From: a virus
Strand: one strand, 5' to 3'
IMG/VR virus record: IMGVR_UViG_3300035667_000108
Span: 1-40,266 of that record
Length of the DNA stretch: 40,266 bases
Made by a program: the position numbers and the translations under genes. How positions within the stretch are numbered: the stretch's first letter is position 1; each line of letters starts with the position of its first letter. Positions 2,876-39,547 of the stretch are shown here, piece by piece. The notes below the pieces were generated by a model. It did not search any database, was not told where the DNA came from, and saw only the letters and a program-made list of their open reading frames with translations.

Positions 2876-3369
2876 ACGCGCCGCTCTCCTATGCCGTCCA
2901 CCTTCATCCGCCGGCGTATCCGGAAAAATGCCGGCCGTTTCGCTGCGAGCACGAACCGCAATTCGTGATGCAGCAGGCGGTGCACCTGGTGCCGCGCAAG
3001 CGCGGCGGCAAGTCGATCGAAATCGATCACGCGGTCTGTCTCGCCTGCGGGCTGCCGCGGCCGTGCACGGTCGGCGGCAATGTGCTGGTCGATCTCAACA
3101 TGCTGTGGGGCCATCTCGGCTGGCATGCGCAGATCGGCGCCCGGATCATCGAGCTGCGCGGGAAGTGGGGTCGGATAGCCAGCTATCTGTTCGGTCCGAA
3201 GGGCTGGAACGGCCGGCATGAGCGCATCGCGCGGCTGATCGATCCCAAGCTCACAATGAAGCTGCAGCTGCAGCGCATCAAGGGCCAGCCGCGCCGCGTC
3301 ACGCCAAACACAGTCCGCATGAGCGTCGTCAAATTCGATCGCTCCTATCTGCGCGAGGAGCTGCCATGA
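2872..3369 (+). CDS. Hypothetical early protein with cysteine pairs
   Basis: 165 aa; overlaps both neighbours by four bases. Cysteines occur at CRPFRC near residues 20-25 and CLACGLPRPC near 56-65, suggesting a zinc site or disulfides. The C-terminal third is rich in Lys and Arg. I do not recognise a family. Its place before the transposase suggests an accessory early function. Confidence 0.6.
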   Translation: MNAPLSYAVHLHPPAYPEKCRPFRCEHEPQFVMQQAVHLVPRKRGGKSIEIDHAVCLACGLPRPCTVGGNVLVDLNMLWGHLGWHAQIGARIIELRGKWGRIASYLFGPKGWNGRHERIARLIDPKLTMKLQLQRIKGQPRRVTPNTVRMSVVKFDRSYLREELP

Positions 3370-4047: not shown

Positions 4048-4071
4048 GGAATGGGGCAAGGACACGTGAAG

Positions 4072-6228
4072 ATGTTTCTATCGGCCGCCGAGATCGCAGC
4101 GGAAATGCTGCCGGGGTTGCCCACCGTGGAACGCGCGGTGAAGCGCAACGCGGTCAAGGGTGGCTGGATCGCGCGGCCGCGCGCCGGCCGCGGCGGCGGG
4201 TTCGAATACGCGGTCGACTCGCTGCCGCCCGCGGCGCGCGCGGCCTATGTCGGCCGCCACATCGAGGCCATCGAGATTCCCGCCTCGATCGCGCGCGAGG
4301 CGGCGAGCGAACCGGACGCCGTCACCATCAATGGCAACGCCGCGTCGGCGCGCGACGCGCGGCTCGCCATCCTGGTACTGGCCGATCGCGTCGCGGAAAC
4401 CGCGAGGATCGGTCACAAGCGTGCCGACGCGCATTTCGCCGATCTCTACAACACGGGGGCCGTCGATATCGCGCCCTGGATCAAGGCCGAGGTCGGCACC
4501 GTTTCGCGCGCGTCATTGGCGCGCTGGCGCTCGTTCGCGAGGGCCGGCAAGAAATCCAAGCTAGCGGTCGACCGCTCGGCGGCGCGCAAGGGCACCGGCG
4601 TGCTCGATCGCGCCAATGACGGCGCGGTCAGGACCTTCATCCTGGCATTGATCGCCAAGCAGCCGCAGCTCACCGCGCATCATTTGCGCGCGCTAACCGC
4701 CGACCGGTTTCCGCAACTGGAGATCCGTGAACAGCCGAAAAGGCTGCCGCCGATACGGACCTTTCAACAGACCTTGAAGACATGGCGCGCCAGCTACCGG
4801 GTCGAGCTTGAATCGATCCGCAACCCGGACGGCTTCAAGAGCAGCATGCGCTTCTCCGCGCGGGTCGCCAACCCGGCAACGCGGCTCAATGAAGTCTGGC
4901 AGATCGATGCGTCGCCGGCCGACATGCTGACCACCGATGGGCGCCGGCCCACGATCTATGTCTGCCTCGATATCTTTTCGCGCCGCATGATCTCGCTGGT
5001 CACCGAAACCCCGCGCGCGGCGGCAGTCGGCCTGCTGATCCGCAAGGCGATTCTTGAGTGGGGCGTGCCGGAGCGGATCAAGACCGACAACGGCAGCGAC
5101 TTCATCTCGCACGCCACGCGGCGGCTGTTCGCAGCGCTCGGCATCGAGCACGAGAAATCCGCGCCGTTCTCGCCGGAGCAGAAGGGCCACATCGAGCGCT
5201 CGATCGGCACGCTGCAGCGCGGCCTGATGCGGACGCTGCCAGGCTTTGTCGGCCACTCGGTTGCCGACCGCAAGGTGATCGAGGGCCGCAAGGCGTTTTC
5301 GGCGCGATTGGGCGAAACGCCGGAGGATATGTTCCAGGTCGAGCTCTCCAATGCCGAGCTGCAGCAACGCTGCGATGCGTGGTGCAAGGATGTCTACGGC
5401 AACAAGGCGCATGCAAGTCTGAAGGGCCGGACGCCGTTCGCGGTGGCTGCGATGGCGCCGGGCAAGGTGCGGCGGATCGAGGATCTGCGCGCGCTCGACA
5501 TGCTGCTCGCCCCGGTCGCCGGCAAGGACGGACTGCGCACCGTCACCAAGACCGGGCTCCGCATCCACGGCGCGCATTACCTCGGCGGCTTCCTCAACGT
5601 CGGCGACACCGTGCTGGTGCGCATGGACGAATCCGACATGGGCCGCGCCTATGTGTTCGAAGCCGATGGCGAAAGCTTCCTCGGCGAAGTGATCTCGCCG
5701 GAGCTCGCCGGCATCGACCCGGCCGCCGCCATCGCTGCCGCGCGCGGCGCGCAGAAGCGGCTGATCAACGAGCGCATGGATGACGTGCGCAAGGAAGCGC
5801 GCAGGATCAAGGCCAAGGATTTTGCGCCCGCAATCCACCGCCAGGCGCTAATCGACGCCGGCACGCTGATCGAGTTTCCGAAACAGACCAGCGCGCACGA
5901 TACGCCGGCGCTGTCGGCCGCGCGCGATGTGCATACTCCGGACGTGGCCCGTCACTCCGATGCGGTGGTCGCGCTTGCAGAGCAGCTGCGCGCCGAGGAC
6001 GCCGCGCCCTCCGCGACCGTGAAGTCGCTGCGGACAACCGAGACCGCACACCAGCGCTGGAATCGCGCGCGCGCCATCGAGGCACGGGCCGCGCGCAAGG
6101 AATTCGTGGATGCCGATGAACTGATGTGGCTCGGCGCTTACCGCGAAGGTCATGAGTACCGCGGCTTTTTCGCCACCTACGGCGAAGCCGCTCAACCCGG
6201 CGAGGAATCCCGCGTCGGCGAAATCTAA
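4072..6228 (+). CDS. A: MuA-type DDE transposase
   Basis: 718 aa from ATG 4072, preferred because AAGGA lies nine bases upstream and the N-terminus then begins directly with the MuA DNA-binding domain (FLSAAEIAA...LPGLP); an ATG at 4051 is also in frame. Order: N-terminal winged helix (about 1-65), helix-turn-helix end-binding region (about 90-240), integrase core, beta-barrel (about 440-520), basic helical C-terminus. The catalytic triad is Asp279 (WQIDASP), Asp339 (KTDNGSDF) and Glu375 (KGHIERS). The 36-residue spacing from the second Asp to Glu is like retroviral integrases and shorter than the 56 in MuA. It would cut and join the phage ends for integration and replicative transposition, working with the MuB-like ATPase just downstream. 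Confidence 0.95.
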   Translation: MFLSAAEIAAEMLPGLPTVERAVKRNAVKGGWIARPRAGRGGGFEYAVDSLPPAARAAYVGRHIEAIEIPASIAREAASEPDAVTINGNAASARDARLAILVLADRVAETARIGHKRADAHFADLYNTGAVDIAPWIKAEVGTVSRASLARWRSFARAGKKSKLAVDRSAARKGTGVLDRANDGAVRTFILALIAKQPQLTAHHLRALTADRFPQLEIREQPKRLPPIRTFQQTLKTWRASYRVELESIRNPDGFKSSMRFSARVANPATRLNEVWQIDASPADMLTTDGRRPTIYVCLDIFSRRMISLVTETPRAAAVGLLIRKAILEWGVPERIKTDNGSDFISHATRRLFAALGIEHEKSAPFSPEQKGHIERSIGTLQRGLMRTLPGFVGHSVADRKVIEGRKAFSARLGETPEDMFQVELSNAELQQRCDAWCKDVYGNKAHASLKGRTPFAVAAMAPGKVRRIEDLRALDMLLAPVAGKDGLRTVTKTGLRIHGAHYLGGFLNVGDTVLVRMDESDMGRAYVFEADGESFLGEVISPELAGIDPAAAIAAARGAQKRLINERMDDVRKEARRIKAKDFAPAIHRQALIDAGTLIEFPKQTSAHDTPALSAARDVHTPDVARHSDAVVALAEQLRAEDAAPSATVKSLRTTETAHQRWNRARAIEARAARKEFVDADELMWLGAYREGHEYRGFFATYGEAAQPGEESRVGEI

Positions 6229-6248: not shown

Positions 6249-7034
6249 ATGAACAAGACTTCAAATCACATCGTCCAAGGTCCCGTTGCGCTCAAGAACG
6301 TCGCCGCCTTCATGTCGATGTCGACGCGACTGATCGAGCGTTCGCCGCATCTGCCCGGCTTCGGCGTCTGCCACGGGCCATCCGGCTACGGCAAGACCTA
6401 CGCCTCGATCTTTACCCAGAACAAGACCAAGGCGATCCGCGTCGAGGTCGGCGATAGCTGGACCCGCCGCACCTTGCTCCGCAACATCCTGCGCGAGTGC
6501 GGCGAAACGGTCAAAGAGAAGTGGCCGATCTCGGATTTGTCCGATCTCGCAAAGTCGGTGCTCGGCGAAGACCCGCGCCGGCCGCTGATCGTCGACGAAG
6601 CCGATAAGCTGGTCGACAAAGGCATGATCGAGATCATGCGCGAGCTGCAGGAATCGTCCGGCGCGCCGGTGATCCTGATCGGCGAGGAAAAGCTGCCGGC
6701 CAAGTTGCTCACGGTCGAGCGCATGCATAACCGCGTGCTGCACTGGTTTCCGGCGCAGCCCTGCGATCTCGATGACGCACGCGTTCTGGCGGATGCCTTC
6801 GCGCCGAAGGTAGAGATCAAGGACGATCTCTTGGAATCGATCCGCGCGCGCTCCGGCGGGCGGGCACGGCGCATCGTGGTCAATCTCGATCATGCCGCCG
6901 AGGTCGCGCGCAACAAGAGCCTGAAGACGCTCGATCTCAAGGCGTGGGGCGCCGAGGAATACTTCACCGGCGAGCCGCCGACAGCGCGCCATGTCGAGCA
7001 GTATTCGCGCGGCGCGACGAAGGCGGCCGCGTGA
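6249..7034 (+). CDS. B: MuB-like AAA+ target-selection ATPase
   Basis: 261 aa. Walker A is GPSGYGKT (residues 43-50) and Walker B is PLIVDEAD (112-118). The protein belongs to the MuB/TniB group, which forms ATP-dependent filaments on target DNA and delivers it to the transposase. It is shorter than Mu MuB (312 aa) and lacks room for the N-terminal helix-turn-helix of that protein, so it looks like the short form common in alphaproteobacterial Mu-like phages. GGAAGG precedes the start. It lies 20 bases after the transposase, one of the few non-overlapping junctions, and ends in TGATG with the next gene. Confidence 0.93.
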   Translation: MNKTSNHIVQGPVALKNVAAFMSMSTRLIERSPHLPGFGVCHGPSGYGKTYASIFTQNKTKAIRVEVGDSWTRRTLLRNILRECGETVKEKWPISDLSDLAKSVLGEDPRRPLIVDEADKLVDKGMIEIMRELQESSGAPVILIGEEKLPAKLLTVERMHNRVLHWFPAQPCDLDDARVLADAFAPKVEIKDDLLESIRARSGGRARRIVVNLDHAAEVARNKSLKTLDLKAWGAEEYFTGEPPTARHVEQYSRGATKAAA

Positions 7035-8475: not shown

Positions 8476-9001
8476 AGCAGTCAGCCTCCCGCAAAACCGC
8501 GAGCAGGCCAGCGCCGCGCTCGCCGAATATGCCGCCCTCGATCGCACCGTCGACCAGCTCGAAATCCTGATGAACGAGCAGATCGCCGCTATCAAGGCGG
8601 ACTACTTTCAGAAGGCGCTGCCGTTCCGGACCAGGTCCGAAGCGCTGGCGTCGGCGCTGCAATCTTACTGCGAAGCCAACCGCGACCAGCTCACCGACAA
8701 CCGAAGCAGCAAGACCGTCGATTTCGGCGTCGGCAAGGCGTCGTGGCGCAACACGCTGGCCACGGTTGCGATATCGGGCAAGGAAAAAGACCTGGTCGAC
8801 TACATCCAGCAGTCCGCAGACGAAGAACTGAAGCCGTTCCTGCGCGCGACCTTCGAGCTCAACCGCGTCGCGTTGCTGCGCAATCCCAACCTGGCGAAGT
8901 CGATCCCCGGCATCGATATTGTCGAAGCCGGCGAGACCTTCGCGATCAAGCCCGACACCGCCAAGATTCCGGAAGCGGCACCTGCGGAGGCTGCGGCATG
9001 A
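8456..9001 (+). CDS. gam: Gam-like host-nuclease inhibitor
   Basis: 181 aa from ATG 8456, with GGAGA eight bases upstream. The order is a long N-terminal helix (ALAEYAALDRTVDQLEILMN), a central stretch with KTVDFGVGKASWR that corresponds to the strand region of Gam, and LLRNPNLAKSIPGIDI near the end, which is highly typical of the family. Mu Gam (174 aa) is a Ku-like dimer that binds double-stranded DNA ends and blocks exonucleases such as RecBCD/AddAB. The alanine-rich C-terminal tail is extra. Confidence 0.9.
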   Translation: MAPAKTKAVSLPQNREQASAALAEYAALDRTVDQLEILMNEQIAAIKADYFQKALPFRTRSEALASALQSYCEANRDQLTDNRSSKTVDFGVGKASWRNTLATVAISGKEKDLVDYIQQSADEELKPFLRATFELNRVALLRNPNLAKSIPGIDIVEAGETFAIKPDTAKIPEAAPAEAAA

Positions 9002-9366
9002 CTCCCGAGCGCACAGGTCTCACGCCGGCGACGCGAAACTGCTTCAACGCGATCGAGGCTCACATCACCCGTCACGGCTGCAGTCCCTCCTTCGAGGAGA
9101 TCAAGCTGGCGATCGGCGTCAACTCCAAGGGCTTCGTGCATCGCCTGGTCACCGACCTGGTGTCGCGCGGCTGGATCACATACACGCCGGGCAAGAAGTG
9201 CTCGATCGTGATCGTGCCCGCACCGGCCGCGCCGCTGCAGCTGCCGGCCGCGCTTGAAACGGCATTGAAGCGCTACTGCGCGAACAGCGGTGCGTTGCCG
9301 AACGCCGTCATTGCCGGCGCCGTCGCGCGGCTTATCGGGTTTTCCGAATTGGACAAAGCAGCATGA
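8998..9366 (+). CDS. LexA-like winged-helix protein without peptidase domain
   Basis: 122 aa from ATG 8998 (ATGA overlap). Residues about 5-65 (LTPATRNCFNAIEAHITRHG, then SPSFEEIKLAIGVNS, then VTDLVSRGWI) match the LexA DNA-binding domain. There is no S24 domain, so it cannot self-cleave. The C-terminal half is a helical stretch of unknown role. It sits between gam and the DnaA-like gene and could modulate SOS-type or phage promoters. Confidence 0.75.
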   Translation: MTPERTGLTPATRNCFNAIEAHITRHGCSPSFEEIKLAIGVNSKGFVHRLVTDLVSRGWITYTPGKKCSIVIVPAPAAPLQLPAALETALKRYCANSGALPNAVIAGAVARLIGFSELDKAA

Positions 9367-10151
9367 CACCGCAGTACGATCGTTGGTTAGCTAGCCGCGT
9401 CCGTCAGCGGCTGCTGTCGCGCTTGGGCAGCCCGGTGTTCGGCGGCGCGCTCGCCGGCGTTTATCTTGACAGCCTCCGCGACGGCTATCTGCAGTTGTCG
9501 GTTCGGAACGAATTCGAGCGGTCGTTGCTGCAGTCGGAGTACATGCCGCGGCTGCTGAAATGCGTTGCCATTGAGACGTCCGACCCGATCGACCGGGTCT
9601 ACATCAGAGTACGTCGGCCGAGCGAAGTGGTGGCTCTAACCTTTCCGTCCGAGGAGGACAGCGTCGCGGACGATGAAATCAACGCCGCCACGGAGCCCGA
9701 AGCGCCCAAAGTTGATCCCGAAGTACCCAGGGAAATCGCCTCGATCGTAAGCCAGCTTGCGCGTGCGCGGGAGACTGGAGCGCTCGACGCCGCCGTCGAG
9801 GATTTGCTGGCGGCCTATGACCATAAACTCGGCCCCGACCCGTCAAAGACATTACGGATTGAGGACATCAAGCGCGCGGTGTGTCGCCGCTTCGGTGTCA
9901 GCCGCGTCGATCTGATCTCGTCACGGCGCACCTGGAATATCGTCCATCCTCGTCAGATGGCCATGTATCTCACCAAGGAACTGACGCCGTGGTCGCTGCC
10001 CGCGATCGGCAGGCAATTCGGAAATCGTGATCATACCACGGTGCTTCATGCCGTTCGCAGAGTCGCGGCCAAAGTCGTGCGCGATGCCGTGGTCGCCGAA
10101 CAGGCGCGGTCGTTAATTTCGGAACTAGCGGGAGCCCGGCCATGCGACTAA
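9363..10151 (+). CDS. DnaA-like protein with domains I and IV but no AAA+ domain
   Basis: 262 aa, about half the length of a bacterial DnaA. Residues about 1-85 resemble DnaA domain I (a Trp near the start, then YLQLSVRNEFERSLLQSEYM), which in DnaA binds the DnaB helicase and itself. Residues 90-160 are an acidic linker. Residues 166-240 are a clear domain IV: IEDIKRAVCRRFGVSRVDLI, then SSRRTWNIVHPRQMAMYL and the signature RDHTTVLHA at 222-230, which reads DnaA boxes. No Walker motifs are present, so it cannot act as an ATP-dependent initiator. It may recruit helicase to phage DNA, compete with host DnaA, or act as a transcription factor; these are inferences. It overlaps both neighbours. Confidence 0.85.
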   Translation: MTPQYDRWLASRVRQRLLSRLGSPVFGGALAGVYLDSLRDGYLQLSVRNEFERSLLQSEYMPRLLKCVAIETSDPIDRVYIRVRRPSEVVALTFPSEEDSVADDEINAATEPEAPKVDPEVPREIASIVSQLARARETGALDAAVEDLLAAYDHKLGPDPSKTLRIEDIKRAVCRRFGVSRVDLISSRRTWNIVHPRQMAMYLTKELTPWSLPAIGRQFGNRDHTTVLHAVRRVAAKVVRDAVVAEQARSLISELAGARPCD

Positions 10152-10834
10152 CGGAACACAAGGCAACGACCAGCATGATTGCGAAAATCCATGTCCTCAA
10201 GGCGCAGGCGGGCATGGACGATGACACCTATCGCGATTTTCTCGCGCGCGAGAGCGGCGGCAAGCGCTCTTCGAAAGAGCTTTCGGTGCGCGAGGCTACC
10301 CGCGTCATCGAGCGGATGAGCGACCTTGCCGGTGACAGCGGCGCGGCGACGGGCGCGGTCACCGGTCTCGACAGTCCGGTGGGGCGCAAGCTGCGCGCGT
10401 TGTGGATCGCCGGCTACGACCTCGCGATCGTGCGCAACCGCACCGACAAGGCGATGCTCAATTTTCTGGAGCGGCAGGTCGGCGTGTCGCATGTCCGGTT
10501 TCTGAAAGATGCCCGCGATGGCGCCTCGGCGATCGAGGGCTTGAAGTCCTGGCTCGCGCGTCAGGGCAAGGTCGCATGGCCGGCCGACACCTCCAACGTC
10601 ATCGCCAGCAAGCGCGCGGTGCTCGATGCGCAGTGGCGGCGGCTGATCGAGCTCGGCGAGGTCAAGGCGGTCGGCAGCGCGGTCGACCCGATGGAGGACC
10701 TGCAGTTCTACGCCGTCCGAATCGTGCGGCAGAACCGCTGGGACACCATGCAGGCCCACGACTACGACGAAGTCCAGGCCGCGCTCGGCCGCAAACTGCG
10801 CGGCGCGATGATGCGCCTCGAAGGAGGCAAGTGA
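10142..10834 (+). CDS. gemA: GemA-like regulatory protein (Mu gp16, DUF1018)
   Basis: 230 aa. The N-terminal sequence MIAKIHVLKAQAGMDDDTYR followed by DFLARESGGKRS is typical of GemA/gp16 proteins of Mu-like phages; translation may begin at ATG 10142 or at the internal Met12 where similarity starts. In Mu, GemA alters host gene expression and DNA gyrase-dependent supercoiling and appears to influence host cell division. Residues 80-130 (RKLRALWIAGYDLAIVRNRT) continue the family pattern. It lies between the DnaA-like and GcrA genes, overlapping both. Confidence 0.88.
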   Translation: MRLTEHKATTSMIAKIHVLKAQAGMDDDTYRDFLARESGGKRSSKELSVREATRVIERMSDLAGDSGAATGAVTGLDSPVGRKLRALWIAGYDLAIVRNRTDKAMLNFLERQVGVSHVRFLKDARDGASAIEGLKSWLARQGKVAWPADTSNVIASKRAVLDAQWRRLIELGEVKAVGSAVDPMEDLQFYAVRIVRQNRWDTMQAHDYDEVQAALGRKLRGAMMRLEGGK

Positions 10835-11352
10835 TGTTGACACAAGAGAACATGCGGACATGGTCCGACCCGCGCATCGCGACATTGAAGAGGATGTGGG
10901 AGGCCGGTTTTTCGGCCAGCCAAATTGCCGGCGAACTCGGCAACGTCACCCGCAATGGCGTGATCGGCAAAGTGCATCGGCTCGGCCTTTCCGGGCGGCA
11001 CAAGATACGAACTTCGGAGAGGCCGCAACGCGAGCGCAAGGCGCGCCCGGCGCGCTTTCTCGTGGAACCGCGACGTCCGACACGCGTCGCGGTCGCGCTG
11101 CTGGGAGCCGTTGCCATCGAGGCTGAGGCGCCGGTGATCTACGACAATGTGGTGCCGATCAGCCAGCGGCTTTCGTTGAACGATCTGACCGCGGCCACGT
11201 GTCATTTCCCGGTCGGTGATCCGACCTCTCCGGATTTTTTCTTCTGTGGCGGCAAAGCGCTGAAGGGCCTGCCGTACTGCGCGCACCATTCGCGGATCGC
11301 CTATGTGCCGGCCGCCGATCGCCGCAGGGTCGACGGCGGAGCGCAACAATGA
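10834..11352 (+). CDS. gcrA: GcrA-family cell-cycle regulator
   Basis: 172 aa from ATG 10834, preceded by AAGGAGG and overlapping the gemA stop (TGATG). The N-terminal helix-turn-helix has W10, GFSASQIAGELG and RNGVIGKVHRLGLS (40-53). The C-terminal domain has Cys123 (TCHFPVGDP), Cys138 (FFFCGG), Cys149 and the following His residues (YCAHH). Both halves of GcrA are therefore present and full length. In Caulobacter and relatives GcrA binds sigma70 and activates promoters carrying GANTC sites methylated by CcrM. A phage copy could redirect the host cell-cycle programme or drive phage promoters. Confidence 0.93.
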   Translation: MLTQENMRTWSDPRIATLKRMWEAGFSASQIAGELGNVTRNGVIGKVHRLGLSGRHKIRTSERPQRERKARPARFLVEPRRPTRVAVALLGAVAIEAEAPVIYDNVVPISQRLSLNDLTAATCHFPVGDPTSPDFFFCGGKALKGLPYCAHHSRIAYVPAADRRRVDGGAQQ

Positions 11353-11383: not shown

Positions 11384-11545
11384 ATGTCGATAGCCGACTC
11401 CCTGCTCGCGGAATTGCGCGCGACCGACGATCTGTTGCGGGCGTTCGTGCTCGCAAGGATCGCTAACGACTACGGCGAAGGCTTCGCGCGCGCGTTGCGC
11501 GAGGAGTTCGATCGACAAGCCGAGCGGAGAGAAAAGGCACAATGA
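11384..11545 (+). CDS. Small hypothetical protein behind a nine-G run
   Basis: 53 aa from ATG 11384, helical, with no family recognised. A run of nine Gs (11374-11382) lies directly upstream and would serve as its ribosome site. An ATG at 11349 overlaps the gcrA stop in the ATGA manner used throughout the operon, but its frame ends after 14 codons at 11391. One extra G in the run would join the two into a 65-residue protein. The true start is therefore uncertain. The gene ends in an ATGA overlap with its neighbour. Confidence 0.55.
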   Translation: MSIADSLLAELRATDDLLRAFVLARIANDYGEGFARALREEFDRQAERREKAQ

Positions 11546-11838
11546 CACAGAGCAGCAAGAGAAAACCTGATCGAAGTCCGCGCGGACGAAACGAGCACCT
11601 CACGCATGATGAGATTGCCAGCATAAGGCTGCGCTTCAATGAGGGCGCGCCATCGACCGTCGTCGCGGGCGAGATGAGATGCACCATTCGAGTTGTTCAA
11701 AAATATTATGCAATGTTCCGCGGAAACGGCGTTCATCGGAAATCGCGGAGACTCGCGGCCCCTGCTCGCGTGAAAGATCGCGCGGAATTCGACGCCATAA
11801 AGCGCTTGCGGTTTTACACCTCTGATTTCGAACTCTGA
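11542..11838 (+). CDS. Small HTH protein
   Basis: 98 aa, strongly basic. LTHDEIASIRLRFNEGAPST, then VVAGEMRCTIRVVQKYYAMF reads as a simple helix-turn-helix of the resolvase/terminase type (G-x-x-x-x-VA-x-x-M-x-C). Likely a DNA-binding protein of the late early phase. ATGA overlap with the preceding gene. No closer assignment is possible. Confidence 0.6.
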   Translation: MTQSSKRKPDRSPRGRNEHLTHDEIASIRLRFNEGAPSTVVAGEMRCTIRVVQKYYAMFRGNGVHRKSRRLAAPARVKDRAEFDAIKRLRFYTSDFEL

Positions 11839-11849
11839 GCGTGGATATC

Positions 11850-12107
11850 ATGACCGCGCGCCGCCCCATCCGCGTCTGCGATCACGCACTGTTGCGCTTC
11901 ATCGAGCGCATCGGCGGTCTGGATACCGAGATGCTGCGCGCGAACCTTGAAGCCTCATTGCAGCGGTCGGTCACCGCCGCTGCGAAGATCGGCTGCAAAG
12001 AGCTGGTGGTGGTCGCGGACGGCAACAAATACGTCATCGTCAATGGCGTCGTGGTCACGGTGCTCGACGGCAAGATGGGCTTCAAACGGGTGAAGCCACG
12101 CCGATGA
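11850..12107 (+). CDS. Hypothetical phage protein
   Basis: 85 aa from ATG 11850; a GTG at 11841 is also in frame. The sequence ICDHALLRF-type start (RVCDHALLRFIERIGGLD) and the strand-rich end (KYVIVNGVVVTVLDGKMG) form a layout I have seen in small proteins of rhizobial phages and genomes, without a known function. It ends in ATGA with the Mor-like gene. Confidence 0.6.
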   Translation: MTARRPIRVCDHALLRFIERIGGLDTEMLRANLEASLQRSVTAAAKIGCKELVVVADGNKYVIVNGVVVTVLDGKMGFKRVKPRR

Positions 12108-12511
12108 CGGAAAAGCTGCCCGGCGTCTTGGCGGAAATCGCGGAGCTCGTTGGCGAGCAGGCCGCGCTCGCCATCGCCTCGCGCGCCGGCGGCACCCGGA
12201 TCTACTTCCCGGCCCATGCCGACGACAAGCACTGGCTGGTGGCGAGCATCGGCCGCGCCGCGGCCGACAAGGTCTGCGCGCATTTCACCGTCGACGAACG
12301 CCGCGGCCAGCGCATCGAGATTCCGCTTTATGTCGGCGGCACCTTTCAGCAGCTGGTGCGGGCCGTGGCCGCGCGCGTGCACAAGCTCGACGCGGAGGGC
12401 GCGTCCTCGACCGAGATCGTGCGCAAGGTTGGCATCACGCAGCGCTCGGTGCATCGTCACCGCGCCCGCCATCGCGGCAACAAGGACGGCAAGCAAGGCC
12501 GGCTGCTGTGA
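12104..12511 (+). CDS. Mor-like middle/late transcription activator
   Basis: 135 aa. The N-terminal part (LPGVLAEIAELVGEQAALAI, then RAGGTRIYFP) and the central strand (GQRIEIPLY) match the dimerisation part of Mor/C activators, and the end (SSTEIVRKVGITQRSVHRHR) is the helix-turn-helix. Mu Mor is 129 aa. Mor and C activate phage promoters that lack a proper -35 element by binding an inverted repeat upstream. Its position, last regulator of the early operon and just before the late genes, fits. The probable targets are the palindromes at 12625 and 21434. Confidence 0.78.
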   Translation: MTEKLPGVLAEIAELVGEQAALAIASRAGGTRIYFPAHADDKHWLVASIGRAAADKVCAHFTVDERRGQRIEIPLYVGGTFQQLVRAVAARVHKLDAEGASSTEIVRKVGITQRSVHRHRARHRGNKDGKQGRLL

Positions 12512-12624: not shown

Positions 12625-12646
12625 CTGACATCTGTCAGGGTTATCA
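12625..12646. promoter_or_regulatory. Palindromic candidate activator site of the first late block
   Basis: CTGACA-TC-TGTCAG (12625-12638) is a perfect six-base inverted repeat followed by GGTTATCAAT. The same arrangement, CTGACA-CC-TGTCAGGGTTA, recurs at 21434 before the second late block. A second short palindrome, TTCACGTGAA (12603-12612), and a GANTC site (GATTC, 12664-12668) are nearby. It sits 59 bases before the first late gene. The likely role is binding of the Mor-like activator; this is inference. Confidence 0.6.
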
Positions 12647-38707: not shown

Positions 38708-39547
38708 ATGGCAACGAGAGTTCTCTACAGGCCCGTTGAGCCTGTGAAGCCGGCCGCGGGCTATATCGGCGGTAAGAAGCAACTGGCGAAGGCAATCATC
38801 GCGTGCATCGAGAAAATCCCGCACGAAACCTACGCGGAGCCGTTTGTCGGCATGGGCGGCGTTTTCCTGCGCCGGCGCCGCGCAGCGAAGGGCGAGATCA
38901 TCAACGACCGATCGGGCGACGTGGCGACGTTCTTTCGCATCCTGCAGCGGCACTACGTGCCGTTCATGGACATGCTGAAATGGCAGGTCACCGGCCGGCA
39001 GGAATTCGAACGCCTGAGGGCGGCCGACCCGGCGACGTTGACCGACCTGGAGCGCGCGGCGCGCTTCCTCTACCTGCAGCGCACGGCGTTCGGCGGCAAG
39101 GTGGCCGGCCGCAGCTTCGGCGTCGATCCTTTTGGCGGCCGGTTCAATGTCACCAAGCTGATGCCGATGCTCGACGATCTGCACGACCGGCTCGCCGGCG
39201 TCGTCATCGAGCGTCTGCCATGGGCGGAATTCATCGGGCGCTACGATCGGCCGGCAACGCTGTTCTATCTCGACCCGCCGTATTGGGGCGGCGAAGCCGA
39301 CTACGGCGTGGGGCTGTTCGATCGGGCGGAATACGATCAGATGGCGGACGTTTTAAGGGGCTTAAAAGGCCGCTTCATTCTGTCGATCAACGACGTGCCG
39401 GAGATCCGGCGGGCGTTCAAAGGATTTGCGTTGAAGCCGGTGCGGTTGAGCTACACGCTGGCAGGCGGCGACAAGGCGCGGCCGGCGCGCGAGCTGATCA
39501 TCACTGGGAGGCGATTGACACAACGCGATGACAAACAAAATCGCTAA
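38708..39547 (+). CDS. D12-class DNA adenine methyltransferase
   Basis: 279 aa. AAGYIGGKKQL (about 16-26) and AEPFVGMGGVFL (43-54) form the S-adenosylmethionine-binding motifs, and DPPY at 189-192 (FYLDPPYWGG) is the catalytic motif for N6-adenine transfer. A target-recognition part lies between. Many family members act on GATC, but the target cannot be read from the sequence. It sits near the right end of the phage, the place where Mu carries the mom modification gene, so protection of phage DNA from restriction is likely. Confidence 0.92.
   Translation: MATRVLYRPVEPVKPAAGYIGGKKQLAKAIIACIEKIPHETYAEPFVGMGGVFLRRRRAAKGEIINDRSGDVATFFRILQRHYVPFMDMLKWQVTGRQEFERLRAADPATLTDLERAARFLYLQRTAFGGKVAGRSFGVDPFGGRFNVTKLMPMLDDLHDRLAGVVIERLPWAEFIGRYDRPATLFYLDPPYWGGEADYGVGLFDRAEYDQMADVLRGLKGRFILSINDVPEIRRAFKGFALKPVRLSYTLAGGDKARPARELIITGRRLTQRDDKQNR

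Follow-up and report, generated by a model that had tools for sequence, protein, structure and literature searches.

Host-type gcrA in a conserved gemA–mor slot and an AAA+-less DnaA-like gene among the early genes of a Mu-like phage

A Mu-like phage has, in its early operon, a gcrA gene of host type in a slot between gemA and mor that is conserved among its relatives, and, directly before gemA, a gene for a DnaA-like protein that lacks the AAA+ domain. We use "the window" for the whole stretch of DNA analysed, a 40,266-base virus record with a Mu-like gene layout (Table 1). It is best explained as a Mu-like phage of soil Alphaproteobacteria of Nitrobacteraceae type, an assignment that identifies the host indirectly, the window being a virus record. 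We favour a reading, at a probability of about 0.5, in which the genes concerned belong to the early operon and do not form a dedicated trio, GcrA is a host-derived replacement that serves S phase and the DnaA-like protein acts on host DnaA sites.

Table 1. Positions of the features discussed, in window coordinates.
Feature	Position	Strand	Basis or remark
S24-type repressor		−	
MuA-type transposase (TnpA)	4051-6228		
MuB/TniB-type ATPase (TnpB)	6249-7034		
LexA-like HTH protein gene	8998-9366	+	Pfam LexA_DNA_bind, 32.4 bits; next upstream of the DnaA-like gene
DnaA-like gene (262 aa)	9363-10151	+	Pfam, alignment, structure models, fold searches
DnaA domain I (residues 1-86)	9363-9620	+	Host domain I HMM, AF2, PDB match
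Linker	9621-9842	+	About 70 residues replacing the AAA+ domain of about 245 residues; two helices predicted, low confidence
DnaA domain IV (DnaA-box-binding HTH)	9843-10148	+	Pfam, 1j1v fold match
gemA	10142-10834	+	Pfam GemA, 91.3 bits, cut-off 27
gcrA, host-type copy	10834-11352	+	Pfam GcrA, 171 bits; AGGAGG ribosome-binding site just upstream
GcrA N-terminal DNA-binding domain	10858-10998	+	Recognition segment VTRNxVIGKVHRLGLSGR intact
GcrA C-terminal domain	11182-11319	+	Matches the part of Caulobacter GcrA solved as 5yix (chain B)
mor	12104-12511	+	Pfam Mor, 23.3 bits, just under the cut-off of 24.9; position conserved in relatives

After TnpB the genes run in the order Gam, LexA-like HTH protein, DnaA-like protein, GemA and GcrA, with Mor further on. 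An earlier reading made from the sequence alone had picked out the DnaA-like, gemA and gcrA genes; their positions and names stand, since all three score above the curated Pfam cut-offs. GemA is an ordinary member of its family: it has the Pfam domain, lies upstream of mor and is accompanied in the window by homologues of TnpA, TnpB, Gam and Mor. It shares family and position with GemA of Mu, and belongs to an alphaproteobacterial branch. Molecular characterization of the Mu gem operon itself is lacking (PMC12407980). The three genes had been described as joined by ATGA or TGATG overlaps. This was found to be so for gemA and gcrA (TGATG) and for the LexA-like HTH stop and the DnaA-like start (ATGA), but the DnaA-like and gemA genes overlap by 10 bases (10142-10151). 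Moreover, Gam and the LexA-like HTH gene also overlap, at 8998, so that the chain begins upstream of the DnaA-like gene, and further ATGA overlaps occur in the window, for example at 3366, 8059, 11542, 12104, 13089 and 16027. The overlaps are part of a longer early operon of overlapping genes and are common elsewhere, and so do not set these three genes apart as a unit. At the downstream end, mor forms the boundary of the gemA–gcrA–mor arrangement. For a 98-residue ORF downstream of gcrA (11542-11838), comparison with 18 loci of related phages gave no match, and a D12-class adenine methyltransferase gene lies near the right end of the window (38708-39547).

Gene neighbourhoods were compared in the 18 nearest Mu-like relatives with enough downstream sequence (L012-L029, a few of them near-duplicates). 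By the searches used, gcrA lies near gemA in 16 of these, the exceptions being L018 and L019. Besides the window, a DnaA-type gene stands directly before gemA in two of the 18, L018 and L021, and in both it encodes a DnaA domain IV without domain I. In the other relatives this slot is either empty or taken by a different gene, in some cases an unrelated one of HTH appearance; proteins that look by eye like HTH proteins precede gemA in L012, L020, L022, L025 and L027. All three genes are close together in a single relative, L021, where an extra gene separates gemA from gcrA. A scan from the GcrA side covered 77 viral contigs, and gemA lay within 2.1 kb of gcrA in all 15 that bear gemA, with mor usually just beyond; these 15 include near-duplicates, and since many of them were also in the GemA set, the two counts cannot be treated as independent. 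In the Mu-like contigs L035 (5152-6859) and L037 (1-1435), a DnaA domain IV is encoded by each of two ORFs lying side by side.

The sequence-only reading had proposed an undescribed three-gene system and had named rare adjacency in related phages as refuting it. Rare adjacency is what we found (1/18, L021), and we reject a conserved DnaA–GemA–GcrA module. That the three products nonetheless act jointly, as a true cell-cycle takeover module, is largely refuted by the co-occurrence data and seems very unlikely: although the genes are adjacent and overlapping in the window, and domain IV genes neighbour GcrA-family genes in some non-Mu contigs as well, the first gene of the trio varies between unrelated proteins, and no gemA lies near the DnaA–GcrA pairs of the non-Mu contigs.

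Genes for AAA+-less DnaA domain IV proteins are frequent in viral contigs. Among non-Mu contigs, such a gene neighbours a GcrA that passes the Pfam cut-off in L004, L137 (C-terminal part only), L147, L150, L165 and L182, and L144 has the same neighbourhood, with a GcrA recognized by iterated HMM and intact cysteines. Within the GcrA-side contigs that have no gemA, a DnaA domain IV match lies within 6 kb in 7 of 62 and is adjacent in 4, some of these matches being weak and two near-identical. This adjacency is no more than suggestive, since clustering of early regulatory genes is to be expected in phages in any case, and the counts are raw, with early-gene clustering and relatedness still contained in them. 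Iterated matches beside DnaA domain IV in L128, L145, L158 and L196 fell under the Pfam GcrA cut-off and were not counted as GcrA. Small HTH proteins beside domain IV genes (L128:6195-6704, L145:6249-6701, L150:647-1411 and L158:6018-6695) share a SKTSPEYRNKLPPAPEMTKTELRALLAQAVLNTT-like C-terminal stretch; they apparently represent an unnamed phage family with a GcrA-like N-terminus. Bradyrhizobium phage ppBeUSDA76-2 (L006:8791-10429) has a domain IV gene and, about 0.9 kb downstream of it, a gene of the DUF2312 family. We take DUF2312 to be the GapR family, which would make this copy another host chromosome-related gene in a phage. Full-length DnaA, with domains I, III and IV, is encoded in viral contigs L129, L130, L132, L134, L138 and L146, either as a phage gene or in host flank.

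The GcrA protein of the window is complete. It matches Caulobacter GcrA (7ye1) with E=2.3e-33, its N-terminal HTH recognition segment is nearly identical in sequence to that of the Caulobacter protein, and C123, C138, C149 and H152 are invariant across 12 GcrAs. Judged at the level of sequence, the features for methylated-GANTC binding and for σ70 contact both appear to be present. The protein scores 136 bits with NCBIfam sig70cofacGcrA, below the equivalog cut-off of 280, and is therefore treated here as a GcrA-family member and not filed as an equivalog.

Several comparisons bear on the origin of this gene. Identity between the window GcrA and chromosomal GcrA is 70% for two Bradyrhizobium genomes and 69% for Nitrobacter. 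When the window is compared with its nearest phage relatives by transposase and GemA (L012-L016, L091 and L092, of which L091 is the prophage of Bradyrhizobium sp. BR 10289), identity is 70-74% for TnpA and 64-68% for GemA but just 34-38% for GcrA, these relatives having a different, phage-type gcrA in the slot. The group of Mu-phage GcrAs was set by gene position, prior to any tree. In a 36-row tree the window GcrA groups with host GcrAs of Bradyrhizobium, Nitrobacter and Rhodopseudomonas (support 90/89; 99 in another tree), and that of L099, a Rhodopseudomonas prophage, forms a pair with the GcrA from the chromosome of the same genome (98/99). A single origin of the Mu-phage GcrAs was rejected in the 36-row tree (p-AU 7.9e-6), so the gcrA slot has been refilled more than once. 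The simplest reading is that gcrA was replaced in place, more than once, by host-type genes. For L020 and L095 the link to a host is weaker than for L099 and the window, and their GcrA branch is long. A mixed GcrA alignment was too diverse to serve for scanning. There is scarcely any likelihood that the host-type gcrA and the DnaA-like gene are chance passengers under no selection. Neutral acquisitions are many in phages and the trio is rare, but gcrA has been held in one slot across the lineage and swapped for other gcrA copies, not lost, and despite 30% divergence the window's copy still has every functional segment intact.

GcrA has been reported from phages before, together with a proposed role (PMC3556154, PMC6630229). 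GcrA-family proteins are likewise carried by phiCbK-like Caulobacter phages and by Agrobacterium phage Atu_ph08 (PMC3556154, PMC6630229). The role proposed for phage GcrA is to enhance replication functions of the host (PMC3556154), and its acquisition by phages from their hosts has been suggested (PMC6630229). In contrast to these phages, the window phage is temperate and Mu-like, with gcrA in a fixed gemA–mor slot and a host-type replacement there, and its GcrA stands at 70% identity to host GcrA as against 31% to phiCbK GcrA.

The DnaA-like protein was aligned with seven chromosomal DnaAs from related host genomes. Its first 90 or so and last 100 or so residues match, and AAA+ domain III with its Walker motifs is absent; domains I and IV, their order and the DNA-contact residues are thus held in common with Nitrobacteraceae chromosomal DnaA, whereas domain III is not. 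The protein scores 25.1 bits with Pfam DnaA_N, narrowly over the cut-off of 24.6, and 99.5 bits with Bac_DnaA_C. With the TIGR00362 equivalog model it reaches 124.7 against a cut-off of 343.9. Since the AAA+ domain is absent and the score lies below the equivalog cut-off, we refer to the protein as DnaA-derived or DnaA-like and not as a DnaA initiator. A domain I HMM built from host sequences, with the window excluded, finds it at E=1.7e-9. The AF2 model of the N-terminal part alone (residues 1-103) has a mean pLDDT of 81.5 and the topology of DnaA domain I, and its best PDB match is DnaA domain I 4tps (TM-score 0.81 by target length), followed by the helicase loader DciA. Domain IV is modelled by AlphaFold with pLDDT above 90, is 43% identical to the protein in the 1j1v DnaA-box complex (TM-score 0.96 by target length) and is about 52-59% identical to chromosomal DnaAs; a tree of domain IV gave no resolved branching, having too few columns. 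In E. coli numbering, we take the DNA-contact residues of domain IV to be kept, and in domain I the equivalents of W6 and F46 to be kept and those of W25 and W50 to be lost. With the latter two gone, partner binding may be altered.

Among the domain IV ORFs without AAA+ in the fetched loci (about 97, some duplicated), domain I was detectable only in the window's protein. The domain IV-only HTH proteins of alphaproteobacterial phages (L018, L021, L006 and others) have the same DnaA-box-type HTH and likewise lack AAA+, but, unlike the window's protein, have no detectable domain I. One other protein with domains I and IV was found, on a Bosea megaplasmid. This protein, WP_083247352.1 of Bosea sp. 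RAC05 (pBSY19_1, L309:7896-8681, 261 aa), has DnaA_N and Bac_DnaA_C with no AAA+ found and is of similar length; it differs in being megaplasmid-borne, in its identity of 26% over the aligned part and in having no gemA or gcrA annotated nearby. It is annotated only as an HTH protein. No more such proteins were seen among the matches listed (best pieces) of 150 Hyphomicrobiales genomes, where chromosomal DnaA dominated.

A role as a phage replication factor, loading host DnaB on phage intermediates through domain I, is unlikely. The domain I fold would suit it, matching both DnaA domain I and DciA, but Mu loads DnaB by PriA-type restart, there is no phage DnaA-box cluster to bring the protein to phage DNA, and the other AAA+-less domain IV proteins of the fetched phage loci do without domain I. 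The kept F46 equivalent also speaks for DnaB loading, as F46 in E. coli binds DnaB and DiaA (PMC4776307).

We searched for sites on which the two regulators might act within the phage. The window contains one relaxed DnaA-box match, against 0.84 expected, and nine relatives contain none to two; a phage-borne DnaA-box origin was rejected on this chance-level match. GANTC was likewise rejected as a phage-specific signal, its 2.4-fold depletion in the window being equalled in host DNA (ratios 0.41 and 0.43). Just past mor, at 12625-12638, lies a palindrome, CTGACATCTGTCAG, that is conserved in many related phages and followed by a AATTTCGGG-type segment; this is probably the predicted Mor-activated promoter region. 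A conserved GANTC at this predicted Mor-dependent promoter was also rejected, as the first of the two sites in the window is GATTG in most aligned relatives. With no phage-borne target evident for either regulator, the host chromosome appears the likelier site of action. That the genes are aimed at host replication or the cell cycle, as had been proposed, is supported for gcrA by its conserved and refilled gemA–mor slot and host-type copies; for the DnaA-like protein it is plausible, given its domain architecture and a phage without a DnaA-box cluster.

It is possible, if clearly short of probable, that the DnaA-like protein is instead a transcription factor that binds DnaA boxes at host promoters or at unrecognized phage promoters, with domain I as an interaction handle and oriC unaffected. 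Other apparent DNA-binding proteins occupy the slot before gemA in relatives, domain IV-only DnaA genes are widespread in phages, and Caulobacter DnaA directly activates gcrA, ftsZ, mipZ and hdaA (PMC3193534). Such a protein would have no need of domain I if it were a simple DNA-binding regulator, however, and domain I is retained; moreover, DnaA-box matches in the phage are not above chance.

Under our preferred reading, of early-operon genes with a host-derived GcrA and a DnaA-like protein directed at host DnaA sites, we infer the biochemical actions and the benefit to the phage as follows. The slot between gemA and mor would be old, and a host-derived GcrA would have displaced an earlier phage version there. 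GcrA has been described as a cofactor of σ70 that works at methylated promoters (Haakonsen et al., 2015, cited in PMC6630229); by homology, the window's protein would bind CcrM-methylated GANTC promoters in this capacity and would switch on host S-phase genes, for replication and topology enzymes, in the service of replicative transposition. GemA would be the usual Mu accessory, and the DnaA-like protein an accessory in the variable slot before it. In Caulobacter, activation of gcrA and other cell-cycle promoters by DnaA is direct, and an AAA+ mutation can separate the initiator role of DnaA from its activator role (PMC3193534). The DnaA-like protein would still bind DnaA boxes and DnaA partners but would form no ATP filament to open oriC; given the absence of AAA+ domain III, neither an ATP-dependent oligomer nor origin opening is expected. 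Most likely it would occupy host DnaA sites, so that oriC fires less often during phage replication, which proceeds from transposition forks. Its site of action is probably the host chromosome, where it would block or rewire DnaA sites. Initiation is known to be lowered by a prophage protein that attaches to DnaA domain I (PMC4776307). E. coli prophage YfdR and lambda P are phage proteins that target DnaA and lower initiation, but they are not DnaA-derived and bind DnaA instead of competing for its boxes (PMC4776307). More tentatively, host DnaA sites might be blocked or redirected by the AAA+-less DnaA while the captured GcrA drives the next step of the host cell-cycle circuit, giving an S-phase-like state without oriC firing, and the pairs of DnaA domain IV and GcrA in unrelated alphaproteobacterial phages might then reflect the same strategy reached several times.

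The repeated uptake of gcrA at one spot suggests that steering the host replication programme pays off. If our reading is true, phages repeatedly place a master regulator of the host cell cycle at a single fixed position in the operon, and the question of which host programme a transposing phage needs becomes testable. Furthermore, the DnaA without AAA+ would offer a dominant-negative or separation-of-function initiator of natural origin, with which one could ask which of the functions of DnaA depend on the ATPase.
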